Assembly: GCA_943704525.1 (NCBI GenBank)
Contig: CALSCQ010002977.1
Location: 1 to 26,443 of the forward strand
From: Pigoraptor vietnamica
Lineage: Eukaryota; Opisthokonta; Filasterea
Direction: 5' to 3'
Length of the DNA: 26,443 bases
A program made the translations under genes and the position numbers. Positions 5,547 through 26,443 of this stretch are shown in pieces (the first letter of the stretch is position 1; every line of letters starts with the position of its first letter). The notes under the pieces were generated by a model. The model searched no databases. It had not been told where the DNA came from and saw only the letters and a program-made list of their open reading frames with translations.

Positions 5547-5736
5547 CGCTTGTCTCTCCCTATTTCGCTCTGCTGTGAACGCGCGGGCTAAGAGTGAAGG
5601 ATTGATTCGTTTGAACACATATCTAGATTGATTGTTGTAACGCTTGTCTCTCCCTATTTCGCTCTGCTGTGAACGCGCGGGCTAAGAGTGAAGGATTGAT
5701 TCGTTTGAACACATATCTAGATTGATTGTTGTAACG
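5547..5736. repeat. Perfect 94-bp tandem duplication
   Basis: The unit 5547-5640 (starts CGCTTGTCTC, ends ATTGTTGTAA) is followed immediately by an identical copy at 5641-5734. Another two bases match after that. No mismatch is seen, so the duplication is recent or homogenised. It lies in AT-rich 3' flanking DNA about 120 bp after the aconitase stop. Confidence 0.95.
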
Positions 5737-6339: not shown

Positions 6340-6536
6340 TGTGGCGTACTGTGTGTGCACATTTGTGTGTGTGTGGTGTATGTATGTATTACTACTGAAT
6401 GTGTGTGTGCACATTTGTGTGTGTGTGTGTGTGTGGTGTACTACTACTACAGTGTGCATGCACATTTGTGTGTGTGTGTGTGTGTGTGTGTTGTGTGTGT
6501 GGTGTACTACTACTACATGTGTGTGTGCACATGTGT

Positions 6537-6545
<9 letters not shown>
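6340..6545. repeat. TG-rich minisatellite with TGCACAT and TACTACTACTAC blocks
   Basis: A composite unit of TGCACAT, a (TG)n run, GGTGTA and a CTA-repeat block recurs. TGCACAT occurs at 6356, 6408, 6459 and 6526. GTACTACTACTAC follows the TG run in the second and third units, and a degenerate GTATTACTACTG follows in the first. The period is about 51-67 bp. Confidence 0.8.
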
Positions 6546-6572
<27 letters not shown>

Positions 6573-6593
6573 CGTGTGTGTGCCGTGTGTGTG

Positions 6594-6595
<2 letters not shown>

Positions 6596-6650
<55 letters not shown>
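6596..6650. repeat. Pure TG/CA dinucleotide tract, 55 bp
   Basis: This is an uninterrupted alternating TG run about 285 bp upstream of the Munc13 ATG. It is preceded by three GCCGTGTGTG-type units (about 6571-6600). Alternating purine-pyrimidine runs of this length can adopt Z-DNA and are length-unstable. Confidence 0.9.
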
Positions 6651-6651
<1 letters not shown>

Positions 6652-6935
6652 TGTGTGTGCCGTTTGTGTTTTGGTCATCCCTTTTTGACAAACCCGGAGC
6701 AATTTTGATGTCGTACTAAACCCCCACTGTTCGTTGAAATGGCTATTGATACCTGCAAAACATGGCCCGTCGGAAGGCACACCCACACGCACCACACACG
6801 ATCGGCATCACCGCAAGTTTCAGTCATATACGTACATAGAGGATGCCATTACGACTGTCGTTGAACATACAAGAACGTTTGGAATTGTTCAAAATTTTGC
6901 GGTCGATAACTATTTCTACGTAAGGTGACGCCGCC

Positions 6936-15248: not shown

Positions 15249-18200
15249 ATGGCGCATGCGCAGCGACACATTCTTTACGACCTGTGGGAGCCCGCCGAGT
15301 GGCCTCCGGACCATAATGTATGTCGTGTCGAGGTAGTCGCTATTGTACTCCTCCATCCGCGTGCTCACAGCTGGCTGCCACTTGTCGCACGCAGGGCGAT
15401 GGCCCAGCGGTCGGCGCCGGTGCCGGTGAGATACGCAAGCATATGTTTATTTGCTCCATGTCACGTTTACTTACGCTCTCCTTCGCAGGTTTGGTGCGAT
15501 CGGCCGGTGCGAAACTGCTCTCCCCTCTGTTCAGGTGGGGCACGGGCAATCGCCTGCTGGCATTTGTGCATAGCTAACTCGCGGTACCGCAGGCTACGGA
15601 ATCTTTTTGTCCCCCAAGATATTCTTGACCGAGTGTCGCTATCGAGTCCGTGGCATCTGGCCATATCTGGGTGGGTGATTTGTGGCTCGCGCCGCGCGTG
15701 GGCAGGTATTGACGTGCGTGAATGCAGAAACGGCGACCTTTTGGCCGTGCTGAAGAGCGAAGGCATCGAGATTCGCGACAAGATCGATGGCTATGCGGCT
15801 GTTCGCGGCGCTCTTGCCTGTGGGTGTGCGCTGCACTCGTCTTTCTGTTGTTGTATTTGTCTTGATGATGCGACGTCCATGCGCAGTCGACAAGGATCCC
15901 TTGCCCCAATGGCGGTGCATTTCATGGAGCCCGGAGTCTTCCACAGTCGCCTTTACATTCAGGTGAGCGGAGCATATCTCGCAGCCGCGCGTGAGTCCAA
16001 CCGCTGAACCGCCTGGTTGGCACAGCACGGGCCACGTGGCTGTCGTGGACAGGAATGCGCGGCAGTTCCGACTGGCGAGCACTTCGGACACCCCTCGTGG
16101 CGGACCCGGGCAGGCTGCGGCCGTGGCATGTCTGGAATGGGGCCGTAAGGTGCGCGGCACGACGGGCTCTGAGTCTAGGTGAGTCGGGCGCGCCAGTCGG
16201 TTCGCTTATTTCCGCGCTCACGAATGGTGCCCTTTTGTTTGCAGTGATTTTGAGCTTATCTCCTTGGACTACGGCGGTGTTCTCAAGACCTTTGTTGTCA
16301 GGCACGTGCTGCTGTGGCTGCGAAACGCGGTGTGTTGTGGTGTTGCTCTGACCGGGCGTTTGCTGTCAACCACCAGCGTGCACGACGGTGCGCCCCAGTC
16401 CATCTGCAACCACCGCATAATCGAGTGTCTCGTCGGACTGGGAGTTTCGGCAATCGCCTATGATGCTTCGCGAGGGCTGCTTTGGGCCAGCGGACCCGTC
16501 GCGCAAGGAGGTGGGTTCAAGGAAGGCGGCTAATCCGGTCGCTTCAAGACTTTTCGCATGTAAGTTTAAGCGGTGAATTCGCCTGCATGCGTGGTGTTTG
16601 CGCAGACGGACTCGGCAAGTCGATCAGCGCATGGCGCGAAATAGGAGAGGCTCCGTTCCTCACTGCGGTGGACGGCGCTCCAGCACCGGCGGCGGTGAGT
16701 GGTCGTGTGGTGCCTACGAGTTGGTGCCAGGCAAGAAATTTTCTCGTTCCTGCTGTCGTCGCTAACATTCTCATTGTGTGCAGTCTGGCGGTGGCGGTTT
16801 TGCGCGGTTGGGTCGCGCTCTTCGTGCTGCCGCTGGGTTTGGAACCCCTCCGCCGGCCTATGTTGCCAGCCTTCGCGTGTCTCCGGACTCTGCGCACGTC
16901 GCTACTTTGATGGCAAATGGCCAGTGCCATGTTTTGCAGCTTCCGTCTCTGCGCCACGTGCGCAGCTTTGGCGCAGCCAGTGAGTCCACCGAGACCGTCA
17001 CAGACTCCGGCGGGTGAGTCGCTTTCTCGTCTGTGGAAATCGGGTGCCTTGACTCACGTGATCTTATTCCACCTAGGGCTAACAACGGCGTTTGGGATGT
17101 TGCGTGGTGGTCTCCCTCGACGCTCGCGATTGCCTGGGAGAACGGCGAGCTGGTCGTGGCGTCCCTCGAGTCAGGCGCAAATCTCCTCGGGCGGCAGGCG
17201 GAGCGGTGCGAGCCGCGCGCCCGATTGGCGACGCCCTGGCACGGCAGCGGCGCGTCCTCCGATGGCTCGGATGGTATGCTCGTTCTGGAGGCCGTCGGCC
17301 CTGGCACGGTGAGCTGTCCCCTCTGGTCGGCGAATGGAAGTGTTCGCGTGCACAAACTTGCTTTGTTCACTGTGGTGCCCGCGCGCAGACCGGTTCTGGC
17401 GAGGCCATCCCAACCGCAGAGGGTTTCGCCAGCCGAATCCGCGCGACGATGGGCGCGGTTTTGCATTTCATGGCCGACAGTGACCGCGATCACGGTGCGC
17501 ATGACGCGCTGTCGTCCGCCGACGCTTCCGTGGGCCATCGCCTCCTTTGGGTGCGGCCCACAACGCCAGAGAACCTCTTCCGGCGACACATTGAAGCCGG
17601 AGAGTACGGTGACGCTCTCGTGCTTGCGCAGCTGTACGGCCTCGATGCCGACCTCGTCTACATGAGGCAATGGAGCAAGGTGGCCGTCTCGCGCGCGTCC
17701 ATCAAAGATTATCTTAGCAAGATTGGCAACATCGAGTGGGTCGTTGCCGAGTGCATCGCGCGTATCCCGCATTCGTTCGAGTCGGCGCGGCTGTTGTTGG
17801 ATTACGGACTGAAGCGGGCGGTTGTGGAGAGGTTGGCGGCGAAGACGACAGTCGACATCACCGACAGTTCTGATCGCAGCGATGTTAGCGATGGCGACGG
17901 GCCCGCGGAGGAAATGGTGGCGGCCGTGAACGTGCTAGGCAGCGCGGAGCTTTCGGAGGCGGAGGTTGCTACCATTCGAAGCCGCCGCATTCTCCTCCAG
18001 TTTCTCGATCGGCTCTCTTCATACGAGGCAGTGTGCCGCTGCACGAAGGCGCCTTTCGACGAAGACGGATACCGGCGCTTTCGTGAGGCGGACATCGTTG
18101 AGGTGGCGTGTGAGTTTGCGTCGGCGGGATCGTTGGCGCAGCTACAGGTCGTTTTACATCGTCATGCCGAGGTCGGTCCCCACATTCTGGCGCTGTTGTC

Positions 18201-21200
18201 ACGTATACCCGAAACGATCGACCCGCGCAAGTACGCGGAGATGTGCCCGACTCGCGAAGGGACGAGCGCGATCAAGTGCCAGCCCTGGCGCGCTCTCGAT
18301 TGGGCGGAGCAGGACAGCGCGGGGTGCCCCGTTCGGCAGCGCGCGCGGCACTTTGAGGACCGCATGCCTCCTTACGACGACGACGCGCGTGGCTTGGGGA
18401 AATACTGTCTGAGTCGCACGGACGTCGAAGTGGCGAGCGCCATGGCCGCTTGGTACGGTGACCGCGCTCAGGAGATCGAAGCGTTCAGCGGCCTCGTCGA
18501 CTTCGCTTTGGCGCTTGTGGATATTGGGGCGCAGAGGGGCTTTGGCGCCAGTCTCCAGGGGATTCGCCAGGACTTGCAATGTCTCCGAACTATCGTGTAT
18601 GCCGCGGGCGCCCCTCCCGCGTTCGGGCTCTCGCAGCTCTTGCCTCTCGACACGAAGGAGCGAATTCGCATGATGCTCGCGTCCTCGGGGCCCGAGTCGA
18701 TCGTGCAAAATGTACGAGATATGTGCCTGCCGTATCTCCGACAGATTGCGAGCGCGGAGTCGGGCCGCACTGTGGTCGCGGACATAACCGGGCCGCTGCG
18801 CGAGTGTCTCGTGGAGTTCGCGGCGGAGGGTCAGTTTAACAAGTGCCTCGCCGTTCTCAGGGAATCGAGGGCCTCTTTGTCGCCCACAGCTCGGATCATC
18901 GCGGACGACAGGCTCCTTATCGAAACCGTGATCGATTGTGCGTATGCGCACAAAGGCTCTGGGATGCGCGCGACGAGCGAATTGCGCGCGGCAGCGGACA
19001 TTCTTCCGCGGCGCGAGAACGACATTGCGTCCGAAACGTATCGCGCACTGTTCTCCCGCGTCGATGCGTTCTTGCACCACGTCTCCGCGGCCGAAATTCT
19101 CGCACGGCATTCGCAGCCGCAGCCACTCGCATATTTTGTCGACTGCGATCGGGATTCGGACGCGGCGCGCACTCTGCTGCTTCGCATTGCGCGAGGCTTC
19201 GGACGCGGAAAGTCTCAAGCGCGTCAGGAATGGCGTAACCTACACGCCGACCTGTGTGCGCTGAGATTGCACGCTTTTCCGTCGCTGACTGAAAGTTGCT
19301 GTCACTCGGCTTATGCCGCGGCTGTCCTGTCGTCGGGCAGACCGGAGCTCTTTGACCTCGTTCGCGAGCTGTGGGGCTCGGACCATGGTGCGGCGGACGT
19401 GAGCCACGCCGAAGCAGCCGAGATCGTCACTACTGCGGCACGCGAGTATTTCAACTCGGCGGCGTCTTTGGGCGATCCGAGTCTAGGGATGGCGCGCAAG
19501 TGCCTCCAGCTTGTCCCGGTCGTAGACTCACAAGTCTCTGCGGAGCAAGACTTGCTAGAGGCGGTCGACATCCTGAACGCTGGCGGCGTGGACATGCTAC
19601 CCGTTCAGGTGCGTCTGTGCGGCGACCGGTTCGAGCTCGTGCAGCGCTATCTCTGGGCAAATGCAACGACGTACAAGCGACCGCAGCGTCTCCTTGAGCT
19701 TTGCCGCGCTCTGGGTGTCTGTCGCGCGGACGGAGCGGGAGGAGTGATTTTGGATGCGAATGCTGCTCGCGCCCTCACTGCGCTCGGATCTCGCGCGACG
19801 GAACTTGGCGACTACGCCGCTGCGTATGGCGTTCTCGCGGACGTCGTCGCGGCGGGCCATTCTGTTGCGTGGGAAGCTTGTCGCGACCTGTCTGCGCAAG
19901 CGGCGGGATCACTAGCGCCCGAGCAATGCCGACGTTTGGCGGCGTTCGCGGTAGCCCACGCGCCCGCGTCCCTTGCGGGCGGTTGCCTCTCGCTCTGGCG
20001 CGCAATCGAAGCCGGTGAGGCTTGTGGGTCGTTTTCGGGGGACTTGAATGTGTGTTTACAGCAGCTCCGACAGGAATGGGCGAGCGACGGCGGAGTCGCG
20101 GAATCCGTGCGCGGCGTGACGGAGCTCGCGTATGGCCCATTTTCTGCTTCGCTGGGGCGCCCGTTTGACGTTGACTCATCCGGCAAAGTGTATACGCGGA
20201 CATGGTCGGAGTGTGCGAGTGCCGCGTTGGAGTTGGCCGACAAGGTTGAGCTCGCATCCCTTCACAGCGACGTTGCGCGCGACAACAACGACGAAGGGCG
20301 CTCGTCGTTGTCCCAGCGACTCTTCCGCGCGTCCGCTGCACTGGGGCTGCAGCAGGAAGGATATGCGATCGATGCCGCAGTTGCTCTCGCTATCGACTGT
20401 GTTGCACGCGACACGCCGCTCGCTATCGGCGTCCTTCTCGGCTTGCCGCACGTCGCCGATGCCGAGCGTTGTCTCGCTATGCTCTCCAACAGCGAGCCGA
20501 TATACATGATGGCGGCGTGTGTGTTTGCGCTGAGGGTTTGCGAACGCTTCCGCGGGTCGTCCAATCCTCCGCCTGCAGAAGAAGACCTCCTCGTATTCAC
20601 TCTCGGACGGTTTCTTTCGGTCGCCGAGCCGTGGATTCGATCGCTGCCACTTCCTTCGCCCCTCGTCGAGGAGGACGTGTCGCGCGCTTGCACGGTCGCG
20701 CGCCAGTACCTCGAAATTCTCGTCAACAGCGCGCAGGCACGCGTTTTGGAAGGTCTCGGCCAAGGTGTAGACGTTCCGCGGTTCGCGAGAGACGATGCGT
20801 ACAAGAAGGACGTGATCTTGCTGCTAGCTTCGAGCCGTGGTGCTGTGCTGTCGACAGCCATGACCCTGGCTGAGCGGTATAACGTTCCGAAGTTCGAGGT
20901 GGCGCTTCGCCATGTTGAATATCTGTTGCTGGAAAGTGGTGTCGGTGTGAAAGAGTTGGCTGAAGCAACCGACTCCCTGAGTGTGCACATCATTGCGAAT
21001 GCAGCGTTGTCGGCTGCTCGTCTTGTCCGCCTCGTCGAGCGCGTTGACGGACGCGACCACGCGCGCCTCGCGGTCGTTGTGTCCCTACTCGCCGACTGCG
21101 CCGCGGCTCTAGGGCCCGCGCAGGAGGGACCCGGCGTCGAAGCGGGCGTATGGTTCATGGCGGGATTGCCATGGAGTGAACATCTCGCGATGCTCCGGAA

Positions 21201-23337
21201 GCTACGCCAGGCCGCCGGTGGACTTGATTATAAGGCCTTGGTCTGTGGCACTTCCTCTGAACGAATTTCCGCGATCGCCGAGGTCCTTGCGGACAGCAAC
21301 GTCCACGTCCTGGCGCGCCTCGTCGCCCGAATCCCTGGGAGCGGTCTTGCGGCCTCGCAGGTGTTCCTCATGCACCTGACTTCGTCCATGAAGGCCGCGA
21401 TTGGCGGCGACTGGGAAGGGCGCTTTGCGGCGATATCGAACGACCTTGGACGATTGTCTGCGCCGGACTTCATCTCGTTTGCGAACTTTGTTTGCCTAGA
21501 CCCCGATGTGGTGTCGCGAGTGACGTTGCCATCCCGCGCACTTGTCGCGCGTGCCCTCCTGTCATTTGCGGAAAAATCGGGCGGCGTGAAAGGGAAGAAG
21601 GGCCGGCAGCGTGGGTTACCTGCCGCTGACGACGACGCTGACGCAGACGTGGGGGACGCTGTTCCTCGCATCCGTCAAATCTTGTCCCACCTCGCCGCTG
21701 TGTCTGCTGTCGCCGAAGGCGCATTTCGGGACTCGTCATGCGATTACGTACGCGAATTTGACGACGCGTTCGGAGCCGAGAGGAAGGTGTGTATGAAGTG
21801 GGCTCCTTATTTTCTTGCCGCTTCGTTTTCTTTGCGCATTTATATTAACTGGGTTCTCTTGCTCTTCGCGCGCACAGATTCTGCGCTTGGCCGCCCACCT
21901 TGTGATCGACGGAGCTTCCGGCGGCGACGTCACGGGGCTCCTTGAGACAGTGAAGTTGACTTACGACGCCACAATTGCGCTTCGAGCTGTGATCAGCGAG
22001 GCCGTGGAGCTCGCTCTGACTGGACTGTTATCTGGGTGAGTTCCGTGTGCGGTGATTTGAAGTGTGCCACCAGCTATTCAAAGCGAAGGGTGTTCCGCGT
22101 AGAGAGGACTCCGTGGCCGTCTCTCGGCTGGAGAGGGCTGCCCGGTTTGCCATGAGTGCGGCGAGCGTGGACGAGCAGGGCGAGTGGATCGATCGTCTGC
22201 GCTCCTTCTGCGCAGACCCCGGAGTGCCTCTGAAATGTCGCGAGAAAGCACTTGCGGTTCTCGAGAAAGTGAGTGGTCCTCTCGGCTTGGGCCCGGCGTG
22301 TGAATGTAGCGCTTCTGACATTGTTTTCTACCGCCTTTTCAACAGCACGCATCGCACAGTACCGACTCTATCCTGTACCTACGCGCAACGGCGCTGCTCA
22401 AAGCGTCCCAGGGAAAAGAGGTGCGTTTTGGCGTTACTCGTCATCCCCTATTAGTGTTGTGGTAACCTTGTGTTTGTGCAGGTTTCCCCTGCGAATGTTT
22501 CAAGCGCTGAGAATCGTGTCGCATTCGTGGAGGCTCTGGCAAAGGAGAGTGGCGCGTCTGTTGCGCTACTTGGCCTTCTGCGACTTTTTGCGGCTGCGGA
22601 TGGCTGTGCGTTGTACGCGCGACTGTATGCCGAGTGCGTGATGGCGCTCGTGCGCGACGGCGAGACCGTGTCCCTTGAGGACGCGTGTCGTGAGTCGGAT
22701 TTTCGCAAAAGCCTCGACGTGGAGGTGGGATTTTTCAGCAAGCATTTTACGCTCTCCGTTCGCCCCGAAATTGTGCTTCGTTTCTCGCCTCTCATATTTT
22801 GGTGTCATTTTCTTTTGTTGCGTTTTTTCTACCCAGACTGACGACGGGCTTTTCGAGGCCCTCCGCGATGGCACCAATGCCAGACTTGCGTGCCTTTTTG
22901 CCGTGCATTCTGTACACGCCCGCGTCCGGTTGCACGGTGCTGCCATGATTCGAACGGGGGCTAGCCTTTCTTCTCGCGAAGACGCACAGGCCATCGTGTC
23001 GGACGTTCTGCGGTGCCCGGCCGTATCCGAATTTGTCGTCGCATTGGCGGATTCGTCGTCGCGTTTTGCGTTTGATGCACTCGCCTGCGCTGTTCGCGCG
23101 GTTGGAGTCGTGGACGCCGCAGCTGTCGTGGTCCTGTTGCGCGAGGGCGGGCGCCCCCTGCATGCTAATCGACTGTCCCTTGCTGTGTATAATGTTCATT
23201 CGTCTTTGTCTGTTGGCGCGGGTATGCCGTGTGCTGTTCGTCTTGTGGGTGCCTTGGTCGCTGGTTGCAAATTTCGCGTTCTCTCTTTGCCGCCTGACGA
23301 GGTTGTGAGGCTGGCCAGCCGGTCCTTGGAAAAATGA
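15249..23337 (+). CDS. NBAS: NBAS homologue (NAG/Sec39; NRZ-Dsl1 tethering complex subunit)
   Basis: NBAS joins RINT1/Tip20 and ZW10/Dsl1 in the ER tether that captures Golgi-derived COPI vesicles; human NBAS also takes part in nonsense-mediated decay. Seventeen exons fit: 15249-15317, 15371-15425, 15489-15534, 15593-15670, 15728-15819, 15887-15962, 16026-16178, 16245-16510, 16606-16694, 16784-17013, 17077-17308, 17389-21786, 21878-22035, 22103-22268, 22346-22420, 22482-22724, 22837-23337. The result is 2308 aa (human about 2371). The N-terminus ILYDLWEPAEWPPD matches the family. Residues 1-460 form a beta-propeller-like region (for example VSPDSAHVATLMANG). Exon 12 carries TPENLFRRHIEAGEY, LYGLDADLVYMRQW, the Sec39-type solenoid (AAREYFNS, LPVQVRLCGDR) and QARVLEGLGQGVDV. 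The far C-terminus keeps WIDRLRSFCADPG and FFRT-like LYLRATALLKAS. Exon 8 may hide a short intron (about 16332-16376), and the exon 16 donor could be 22725 or about 22758. Confidence 0.9.
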
Positions 23338-23624: not shown

Positions 23625-26203
23625 TCATTGGGAAAGTGTTCTGAATTGCGACATCCCTCGGGCGGGGTCACAGGTCAGGGCTTGCTCCGCCCGGTCACGA
23701 TTGACGCCGCCGGTTAGCATCGTGAGCCGGATAATGGCCTCGGGCAATAGCACGTTCACAATATACGCCGACGAGATTGGCACACTTCCACGTACACCGC
23801 CGTATGAACGCCGTTCGAAACGCCGCAACAGCTCAGTCGCAAGCGTTTCCCAATCTGCTAGCTTCAGGGGACCGAACCCATTCTCCCGGTTGAGACCTCG
23901 GCGCGTTGATTCCGCAAAATACTGGTCGTGCCGCCAACAACGCGTGCTGCCCGCCGCAATCGACTTAAGCTCCTCATCAATGACGCCCAATGCAGCGATC
24001 CACTCGGCAATACGAACGGACGGAAGACCGAGAAGCGGTGCAGGGTCCATCTCATCGTCGCCGTCCTCAATGTCCTCGTCGTCGACGGCGTGAGGCGCGT
24101 CGTCGGTCGCATCACCACCCGCGACATCCGCGACATCCGCGGGGAGACGGTCTGCGGCGGCAGGGATCACAGGCGCATCGGAGAATGTCTCCAACGCATG
24201 CCGACGGAGCGACCGACGAAACCGCGCCGTTGCTACTTCCAGCCGGAAGAGCTGCAGCGCAGCACTAAGGCTGTGACTATGCGCCCGCTTTTGAACATCC
24301 GCACGAATCGCCTCAACCGCCGCCTGATGCGCACACAACGTACCAATGGGTCAGTTCATGCCACACCTCACAACATTTTGCAAACAGTGCACACACCTTG
24401 TACTTCTCGTCCATGTCCTTAGGCGGACAGTACTCTCGAAATGGGAGCACCCACTTGCGCGCATTACCCGTGATTTGCAGCGAAGACTTCACCATGGGGC
24501 TGGGTGCAAGAGACAAACGCGACTGGTATTGGTCGCAGACCCCAAACAACGCCGCAGAGTACCAAAGAACGTACCGCGCAATCGGGAAAGGCGTAAGGGT
24601 TATCCGTCGCGGAAGAGCAGTCCGCGGATCCCGTGTCACCGATAGAATCTGTGGGATTTAACCACTCAAAATCGAGTGCTGCGAAGACTCGGCGAAAAGC
24701 ACCAAATATTCTTGAAATGCCGCACTCACCTTGTGTGGCCAATAAGCCGAACCCTTTTTAACATACCACACGTTCGCGTCTTCCTGAATAAAGGAATGCT
24801 CATTGCCTGACGGACACAAATTCCGTGTTAATTGTGCGACAAGAGTTGATCACAAAAAAATGCGCGTGACGGACAGCGCCCTTACCAATATCCATTACAG
24901 GCGTCGCCAAGTCTGTGTCCGAGTCAGCGGCATCATCTTGGCAGTTAGTTACGCCCACGTGGTGCTCGCGGAACAACTGCAAGAACAGAAAGCGCACGGT
25001 CCGCACTGCAATCTTAAACGCTTCCAACGTTCCCTCAACCGGCCGGCTGTTGCCTTTCGCAGTCAACCCATTCCCGGGGAGACCTATGGAGCCATCCCAA
25101 ATTTCGTACTGCTCGCGGTGAGGCTCATACGGCTCAACGTCCGTCTTCGAGATAAGAACGTCCGAGTCCCTAAAACGCGACCATTAGATCGTCACACTAC
25201 TTCCACCAAATTATACCAAGACAACTTCAAACAAAATACCTTGGAAGACCAAATTATACCAAGACAACTTCAAACAAAATACCTTGGAAGACCGATGTAG
25301 CGGATCTGCAGCTCCCCAGGGCACTTCGGATCGACGGCACGAATCTGAACGGACTTAGTGTCATTGAATGTGCTCGCTGCTCTACGTGGCTGGCTAACAG
25401 GTACAAATGCAGCATGGTCACTCGCGCACAGTGCAGCTGGGCAACCTACAAATGCGGGCCACTTCCTTCCATTTGCAAGAGGCGCCCATACGGGAGCTCC
25501 GGCACACAATGGGTCTGCAGTGGACAAAGAGGTTAACACGGCATTCTCGGTTCACGACACGTGCACAAACCCAAACATCCACATCGGCGAGGCAAAGGGT
25601 TAAACAACGGGCGCCGTCGGCAACAGTCTCCACGAACCATCAACGAATCGAGAAGACTGTTCGAAGAAATTGTCCTCGGTGATTTGGGCATTCTGAAGTC
25701 GCTCCCGCTCGCATTTGAAGAGGTCAACGCCACGCAATTCTTTCAAGTCGAGAAGGGCCGCGCGAAACAGATTACCGTGTGTGCGATTCCTTAAGCCCTC
25801 GTCCACAAAGGTGCACGTAGCAATGTCCTCCACATCCAGTACGTGCAGCTTCGATTTCGAAACTGACAGCCTGCGACATAGCAGCATCAAGGTCCAAGTT
25901 AAACACAAGGACCTCCTTGTGGTTGAAGTACGCTTTGTACGTACTTGGTGTGGTCTCCGAAAGATTCGCAAACGACGGTGGAGTCCGAGAGGTCGCTTTC
26001 GTCTTGACCAAGGACAAACTGAAAAAGCCAAAAATTCAGACGTGCATACGTAGCACAAGGAAATAAGGACAGATGCAAAGCTGGCGTCTGCGGAAAAAAA
26101 ACTTGGCACTCGACGTGAACTATTGCACATCGGAACAAAATGCACGCACCACGGGCCAACGCGGGTAACCAGAGAACGGCGCCCAATAGAGGCCTTGCTC
26201 CAT
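23625..26203 (-). CDS. PWWP-domain protein with three PWWP-type motifs and a MUM1/PWWP3A-like tail
   Basis: PWWP domains bind methylated histone tails and DNA, so a chromatin role is likely. Eight minus-strand exons join in phase: 26203-26129, 26018-25945, 25870-25638, 25514-25283, 25169-24886, 24806-24730, 24648-24397 and 24323-23625. The product is 641 aa. Three segments share W, then eight residues, then WP: LYWAPFSGYPRWPVV (W7/W16), PVWAPLANGRKWPAFV (W137/W146) and NVWYVKKGSAYWPHKI (W313/W322). This is the spacing of VWAK..GxPWWPA in PWWP proteins. Behind the second, LQIRYIG and TDVEPYEPH resemble the later strands of a PWWP domain. An acidic stretch (about 490-505, DDEDIEDGDDEMD) is followed by a tail with YIVNVLLPEAIIRL (near residue 600), like the end of animal MUM1/PWWP3A. 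The start ATG lies just before the first motif. A recent 43-bp duplication copies the exon 4 donor. Orthology to MUM1 is tentative. Confidence 0.66.
25205..25293. repeat. Perfect 43-bp tandem duplication across a splice donor
   Basis: The unit 25205-25247 (starts ACCAAATTATACC) is repeated exactly at 25248-25290, with three more matching bases. On the minus strand the copy at 25290-25248 contains the last 8 nt of PWWP-gene exon 4 and its donor (25282). The second copy places an identical exon end and donor 43 nt downstream, inside the intron. Confidence 0.95.
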
Positions 26204-26443
26204 TCTTCAAATATCCTTCCAACACTTCTCCACTGGCTCTCTTCAGCAAAAAACAATTGTCACGTTGGTTTTGGCGGGGTTTACAAGAATTTGGCGGGAA
26301 CAAGTTACTTGACGTAACGAAATCGGGCCGGGCAATCACATCCGGGTGCCGATTTGATCTTTGTATGGGGCGAGTATTGGGGGAAGAGGGATTTTTGACA
26401 AGCGGAGGAGAGGTGGGGGTTTAACATCCGGGTGCCGATGTGA
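26204..26443. other. Upstream flank of the PWWP gene, with a 20-bp direct repeat
   Basis: This is 240 bp of AT-richer DNA upstream of the PWWP gene to the window edge. ACATCCGGGTGCCGAT occurs at 26338-26353 and again at 26424-26439, 86 bp apart. Each copy is followed by one variable base and TGA. The second copy touches the window end, so further copies may lie outside. No CACGTG box and no gene are seen. Confidence 0.6.

Follow-up and report, generated by a model that had tools for sequence, protein, structure and literature searches.

A filasterean gene encoding three diverged PWWP-type motifs and a putative PWP3A-B_C/RTC4-type C-terminal domain

The locus and its gene model

We analysed a 26,443-bp stretch of Pigoraptor vietnamica DNA, hereafter referred to as the window. 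Its content is eukaryotic, comprising spliced genes and including those for a mitochondrial-type aconitase, a Sec39/KNTC1-type protein and a family-2 glycosyltransferase; Rfam (gathering threshold) and tRNA searches of the window found none. The large plus-strand gene, which we take to be NBAS-like, converges on the minus-strand gene that is the subject of this study (the PWWP gene) and ends some 290 bp from it (Table 1). A long TG-rich simple repeat was found at 6467-6659, and a perfect two-copy tandem duplication of a 94-bp unit at 5547-5736, within the most G+C-poor 1-kb bin of the window (0.456 G+C); it is the second perfect tandem duplication besides the one in the PWWP gene described below. 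Upstream of the PWWP gene and on its strand, the 16-mer ATCGGCACCCGGATGT occurs twice within 26338-26439.

Table 1. Coordinates of the large plus-strand gene and of the PWWP gene with its exons and protein regions.
Feature	Position	Strand	Details
Large gene, presumably NBAS-like	17083-23337	+	First long ORF matches Sec39 and a KNTC1-type ARM; exons after 21945 placed by eye only
PWWP gene, whole model	23625..26203	-	8 exons, 634 aa; 641 aa with the alternative intron-1 donor
Exons 1-4	26203-26150, 26018-25945, 25870-25638, 25514-25283	-	GT-AG splicing
Exons 5-8	25169-24886, 24806-24730, 24648-24397, 24323-23625	-	GT-AG splicing
PWWP copy 1	25714..26191	-	Residues 5-95, exons 1-3, motif YWAPFSGYPRWP
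Probable PWWP copy 2	24977..25491	-	Residues 129-262, exons 4-5, motif VWAPLANGRKWP, long insertion between strands 2 and 3
PWWP-like copy 3	24285..24771	-	Residues 305-415, exons 6-8, motif VWYVKKGSAYWP, helix motif KYKAAVEAI
Acidic linker	24030..24149	-	Residues 461-500, 15 D/E versus 1 K/R
C-terminal region	23628..24047	-	Residues 495-634; block YIVNVLLPEAIIRLTMLTGGVNRDRAEQALTCDPA at 23765-23661

Eight exons, rebuilt from three reading frames, join in phase to encode 634 amino acids. All seven introns (73-131 nt) are of the GT-AG type, their phases are compatible throughout, and the joined exons contain neither a frameshift nor a stop. G occupies position +5 in six of the seven donors, and an in-frame TGA stands two codons upstream of the ATG of the gene. 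The gene model is a consistent reading frame, and at the level of the DNA the eight-exon model proposed in an earlier sequence-only reading was recovered: a second donor of intron 1 yields its 641 residues, with motif starts at 6, 136 and 312 exactly as in its numbering. We preferred the donor GTGCGT, because copy 1 then reads WPVFV, the usual spacing, and scores 1 bit better against a home-made PWWP profile (13.8 versus 12.8 bits).

A perfect 43-bp tandem duplication (25205-25293, 2.1 copies) lies across the boundary of exon 4 with intron 4, so that the splice donor is present twice; the second intron-4 donor, if used, would shift the frame.

The three PWWP-type copies

The triple motif in the PWWP gene product is not a chance occurrence. 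The pattern [VY]W.{8}WP occurs three times in the protein, against an expectation of 0.0013 per protein at this composition; one motif appeared in 14 of 20,000 composition shuffles and two or more in none. The looser pattern [VYILF]W.{8}WP, searched for in every frame on both strands across the entire window, returned the same three segments and no others. They lie where the sequence-only reading had placed them (residues 6-20, 136-150 and 312-326 in the 641-residue numbering), and all of them have the canonical W-to-WP spacing of PWWP domains. The same reading called the copies evenly built, which holds for the W-to-WP motif alone; the rest of the copies differs greatly, and by alignment none has a complete aromatic cage. 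Its proposal of a long insertion in copy 2 was confirmed, as 55 residues separate the P of WP from the G-equivalent of strand 3 in this copy; the corresponding distances are 22 residues (copy 1) and 33 (copy 3).

Support for PWWP identity declines from copy 1 to copy 3. Against Pfam PF00855 (PWWP; gathering cut-off 25.6 bits), the whole protein scored 31.8 bits over two stretches, the best being residues 5-63. Cut out alone, copy 1 scored 20.8 and 21.4 bits and copy 2 15.1 bits (E 0.034), or 15.8 bits (E 0.02) in a shorter cut, all under the cut-off; a scan with only the second half of copy 2 gave no Pfam match, nor did copy 3 give one up to E 10 in the four extents scanned. A home-made profile of 13 human PWWP sequences, all recognised by Pfam, when run with filters off, placed one domain on each of the motifs in their order along the protein (13.8, 1.7 and -0.1 bits). 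Shuffled sequences reached the observed scores in 0, 1 and 23 of 3000 cases for copies 1, 2 and 3, respectively, and in 0 of 3000 for the whole protein. The match of copy 3 consists of its first 18-20 residues and a weak helix; a shorter cut of it was equalled by 29 of 5000 shuffles, and enlarging the profile with copies 1 and 2 made its score worse (67 versus 29 of 5000). When the 333 six-frame ORFs of at least 50 aa were ranked against the home-made profile, a procedure independent of the gene model, the frame with exon 4 of copy 2 came first and that with exon 6 of copy 3 second; the frame of the first exon of copy 1 is shorter than 50 aa and lies outside the 333. In hhalign comparisons of single copies with the home-made PWWP alignment, the probability was 81 percent for copy 1, 16 percent for copy 2 and 3 percent for copy 3.

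In the multiple alignment, all three copies were aligned on strand 3 and on a C-terminal helix motif, [FY]xxA[LIV], which is also present in five of the eight known PWWP rows. In pairwise comparison, copy 1 resembles copy 2 (equalled by 1 of 1000 shuffles) and copy 2 resembles copy 3 over the helix region (6 of 1000); copies 1 and 3 show no direct similarity (515 of 1000). An initial placement of strand 3 of copy 3 on SLQITG was dropped for RYVLWYS, a judgement backed by the multiple alignment. Judged from these comparisons, copy 1 is firmly a PWWP domain, copy 2 probably one and copy 3 plausibly one; five-strand barrel folds would be expected of copies 2 and 3. The claim that all three segments are PWWP domains, for which the sequence-only reading had suggested a profile search, thus fared unevenly: it stood for the whole protein and copy 1, less securely for copy 2, which scored under the cut-off, and only as plausible for copy 3, which went unmatched. 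A PDB sequence search with the 634-aa protein gave three matches (E between 0.24 and 0.61), all in a TNF-receptor chain, which we rejected as chance-level.

The aromatic cage of HDGF2 is described as Y18, W21 and F44 (PMC3119473). By alignment, the corresponding positions are Y13-W16-S37 in copy 1, G136-W139-Y193 in copy 2 and S312-W315-W347 in copy 3, each copy keeping two of the three aromatics; the third position is lost in copy 1 and the first in copies 2 and 3. F44 of HDGF2 was here assumed to be the residue two before the G of FFG. A three-aromatic methyl-lysine cage was found by alignment in none of the copies (Y-W-S, G-W-Y and S-W-W), and with two of three positions each, a complete reader cage is supported in no copy. 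A full cage in copy 1 alone was considered and rejected, since S37 falls on the third position in the alignment. Copy 3 is basic (pI 9.7). The other two copies are acidic (copy 1, pI 4.8; copy 2, pI 5.3), an argument against their binding DNA.

Compared with the PWWP family at large (PF00855, including HDGF, DNMT3, NSD, MSH6, GLYR1 and others), the copies share the W-8-WP spacing, the register of strand 3 and helix, an intron after strand 2 (copies 1 and 3) and a variable insertion between strands 2 and 3. Unlike those proteins, the product of the PWWP gene carries three copies in one small protein, each with two of three cage aromatics by alignment, and copy 3 lies below Pfam detection. The multi-PWWP proteins named in PMC3119473 and PMC3457860 are of the NSD type, NSD1, NSD2 and NSD3 having two PWWPs of different origins together with PHD and SET. 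The protein studied here resembles them in having more than one PWWP in a chain and differs in having three, in an intron sharing that suggests duplication inside the gene, and in listing no match to SET or PHD at E up to 10 over its 634 residues. In the open-access PMC literature searched we found no report of a three-PWWP protein; in the parts covered, the wording "three PWWP" never referred to one protein with three PWWPs (PMC3119473, PMC6191444, PMC12071340, PMC8899535, PMC6812964).

The C-terminal region

The C-terminal region was proposed in the sequence-only reading to resemble the tail of animal MUM1/PWWP3A. Eight consecutive residues of the block given in Table 1, VLLPEAII, are identical to human PWWP3A/MUM1, whose sequence as used here is recognised by Pfam (127.6 bits against PF20884 and 219.3 bits against PF20886). 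Over the 35-residue block at residues 589-623, 4 of 2000 shuffles were as good against that sequence. The 94 residues before the block showed no detectable similarity to human PWWP3A (2609 of 3000 shuffles as good), and a global alignment of the whole C-terminal region with it was no better than chance (1044 of 2000).

Profile searches placed the block near two families, PWP3A-B_C (PF20886) and RTC4 (PF14474), which Pfam keeps separate. The cut-out C-terminal piece scored 13.1 bits (E 0.093) against PWP3A-B_C, below the cut-off of 27, and 14.9 bits (E 0.031) against RTC4 over the same block, below the cut-off of 23.7; in the whole-protein scan RTC4 fell to 11.9 bits (E 0.25) and PWP3A-B_C was unlisted. 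The PWP3A-B_C match lies at 93-122 of both the 139-aa piece and the 141-position profile, the start of the piece being our own choice. The MUM1-like_PWWP profile (PF20884) matched neither the whole protein nor cuts of copies 1-3 up to E 10, versus weak matches for four of five human PWWPs scanned alongside; the motif regions of copies 1, 2 and 3 were equalled against the MUM1 PWWP by 0, 4 and 4 per 1000 shuffles. The proposed resemblance therefore survives for the 35 residues around VLLPEAII, which RTC4 fits equally, and does not extend to membership of the MUM1/PWWP3 families by profile. As judged from such comparisons, the link to MUM1/PWWP3A is suggestive at best, and the protein should not be filed as a PWWP3A/B member.

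In terms of layout, PWWP3A/B (MUM1/EXPAND1; PF20884 plus PF20886) likewise has a PWWP followed by a C-terminal domain with VLLPEAII, and differs from our protein in that the PWWPs of the latter are not MUM1-like by profile and only 35 residues of its C-terminal domain match. RTC4-like proteins share the same block, below threshold in both the piece and the whole protein as noted above. Human PWWP3A listed no RTC4 match up to E 10; the window protein is thus the only bridge seen between both families, and a weak one. RTC4 and PWWP together were not found in the open-access PMC literature. An AlphaFold model of exon 8 alone contained helices only, at a mean pLDDT of 38, and searches of viral contigs with exon 8 alone and with a C-terminal alignment (A1) confirmed no relative.

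Origin, alternative readings and possible function

The positions of the introns bear on how the copies arose. Copies 1 and 3 each have a phase 0 intron directly after WP, at sites that differ by one codon. Copies 1 and 2 each have a phase 2 intron directly behind the G of strand 3; these two sites differ by one codon if that G is taken as the reference and by three columns in the alignment. Copies 2 and 3 are also alike in being entered by a phase 1 intron, and the other internal intron of copy 3, in the helix, is found in neither of the other copies. Randomly placed introns gave at least two internal coincidences in 151 of 20,000 trials when sites up to 3 residues apart were accepted. With the tolerance narrowed to 2 residues or 1, the gene itself shows a single coincidence, and at 1 residue at least one arose in 1227 of 20,000 trials. 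The site after WP is described as a frequent split site of PWWP domains (PMC3119473). That two intron positions recur between copies with identical phase speaks moderately for an exon unit having been duplicated within the gene, the origin that we hold most likely for the three copies.

This account has to be weighed against others. That only two PWWPs are real, the third motif being a remnant or a chance W-WP in an otherwise different domain, strikes us as possible but doubtful. Copy 3 lacks a Pfam match in all four extents, allows two competing by-eye placements of strand 3, has no similarity to copy 1 and scores lower with the enlarged profile; nevertheless, its exact spacing is absent elsewhere in the six frames, its frame ranks second among the 333 ORFs, its intron after WP has the phase seen in copy 1, its helix motif is in register, and its motif region compares well with the MUM1 PWWP (4 of 1000 shuffles). 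We consider it very unlikely that the gene model itself is an artefact in which neighbouring short PWWP genes, or a decaying gene, were joined on paper. The donors of introns 3 (GTTCGT) and 4 (GTATTT) do look weak, and the latter is repeated by the 43-bp duplication, but every phase fits without frameshift or stop, and the PWWP and helix motifs are kept in all three copies. Moreover, in the frames of copies 2 and 3 no ATG lies between the motif and the last stop before it, so that each copy needs an upstream exon.

Another possibility is that the gene is a true orthologue of animal PWWP3A/B (MUM1) with a multiplied PWWP. The order of a PWWP and then a C-terminal domain at the extreme C-terminus is the same, the PWP3A-B_C match occupies the same position in piece and profile, and both the 35-residue block and the three motif regions compare well with the human protein. 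Yet the cut-out piece stays under the PF20886 cut-off, PWP3A-B_C is unlisted for the whole protein, RTC4 scores slightly better on the same block, the MUM1-like_PWWP match weakly detected in four of the five human PWWPs is missing, and nothing is seen in the 94 residues before the block or in the global alignment. Orthology appears distinctly unlikely to us.

The reading that we prefer, and give somewhat better than an even chance, is that of a multivalent chromatin tether. An exon unit would have been duplicated in tandem inside the gene and then diverged strongly, giving three PWWP-type barrels, after which the chain would continue with an acidic linker and end in a C-terminal domain, helical and of PWP3A-B_C/RTC4 type. 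The barrels, each with an incomplete methyl-lysine pocket, may dock jointly on nucleosomes, with the basic copy 3 meeting DNA and the C-terminal domain holding a partner. The protein would probably be nuclear, and we infer its tether function, with several weak nucleosome contacts, its ligands and its partner. The affinity of PWWP domains for single histone peptides is reported to be low, with Kd values of about 0.1-1 mM or binding too weak to fit (PMC3119473, Table 1), which makes joint binding by three a reasonable use of such a layout. A more specific version of this reading, with three PWWPs made by exon-unit duplication, a cage decayed in two ways (third position in copy 1, first in copies 2 and 3), barrels acting jointly and a C-terminal domain bridging the PWWP3A/B and RTC4-like families, seems unlikely to hold in full.

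MUM1/EXPAND1 works with 53BP1 in DNA repair. Three diverged PWWPs with a tail faintly like that of an animal DNA-repair factor would be an unusual, not a revolutionary, arrangement. If true, the multiplication of PWWP within one gene would offer a natural test of which features a PWWP domain retains under erosion of the cage, and the tail may be a link between RTC4 and animal PWWP3A/B.
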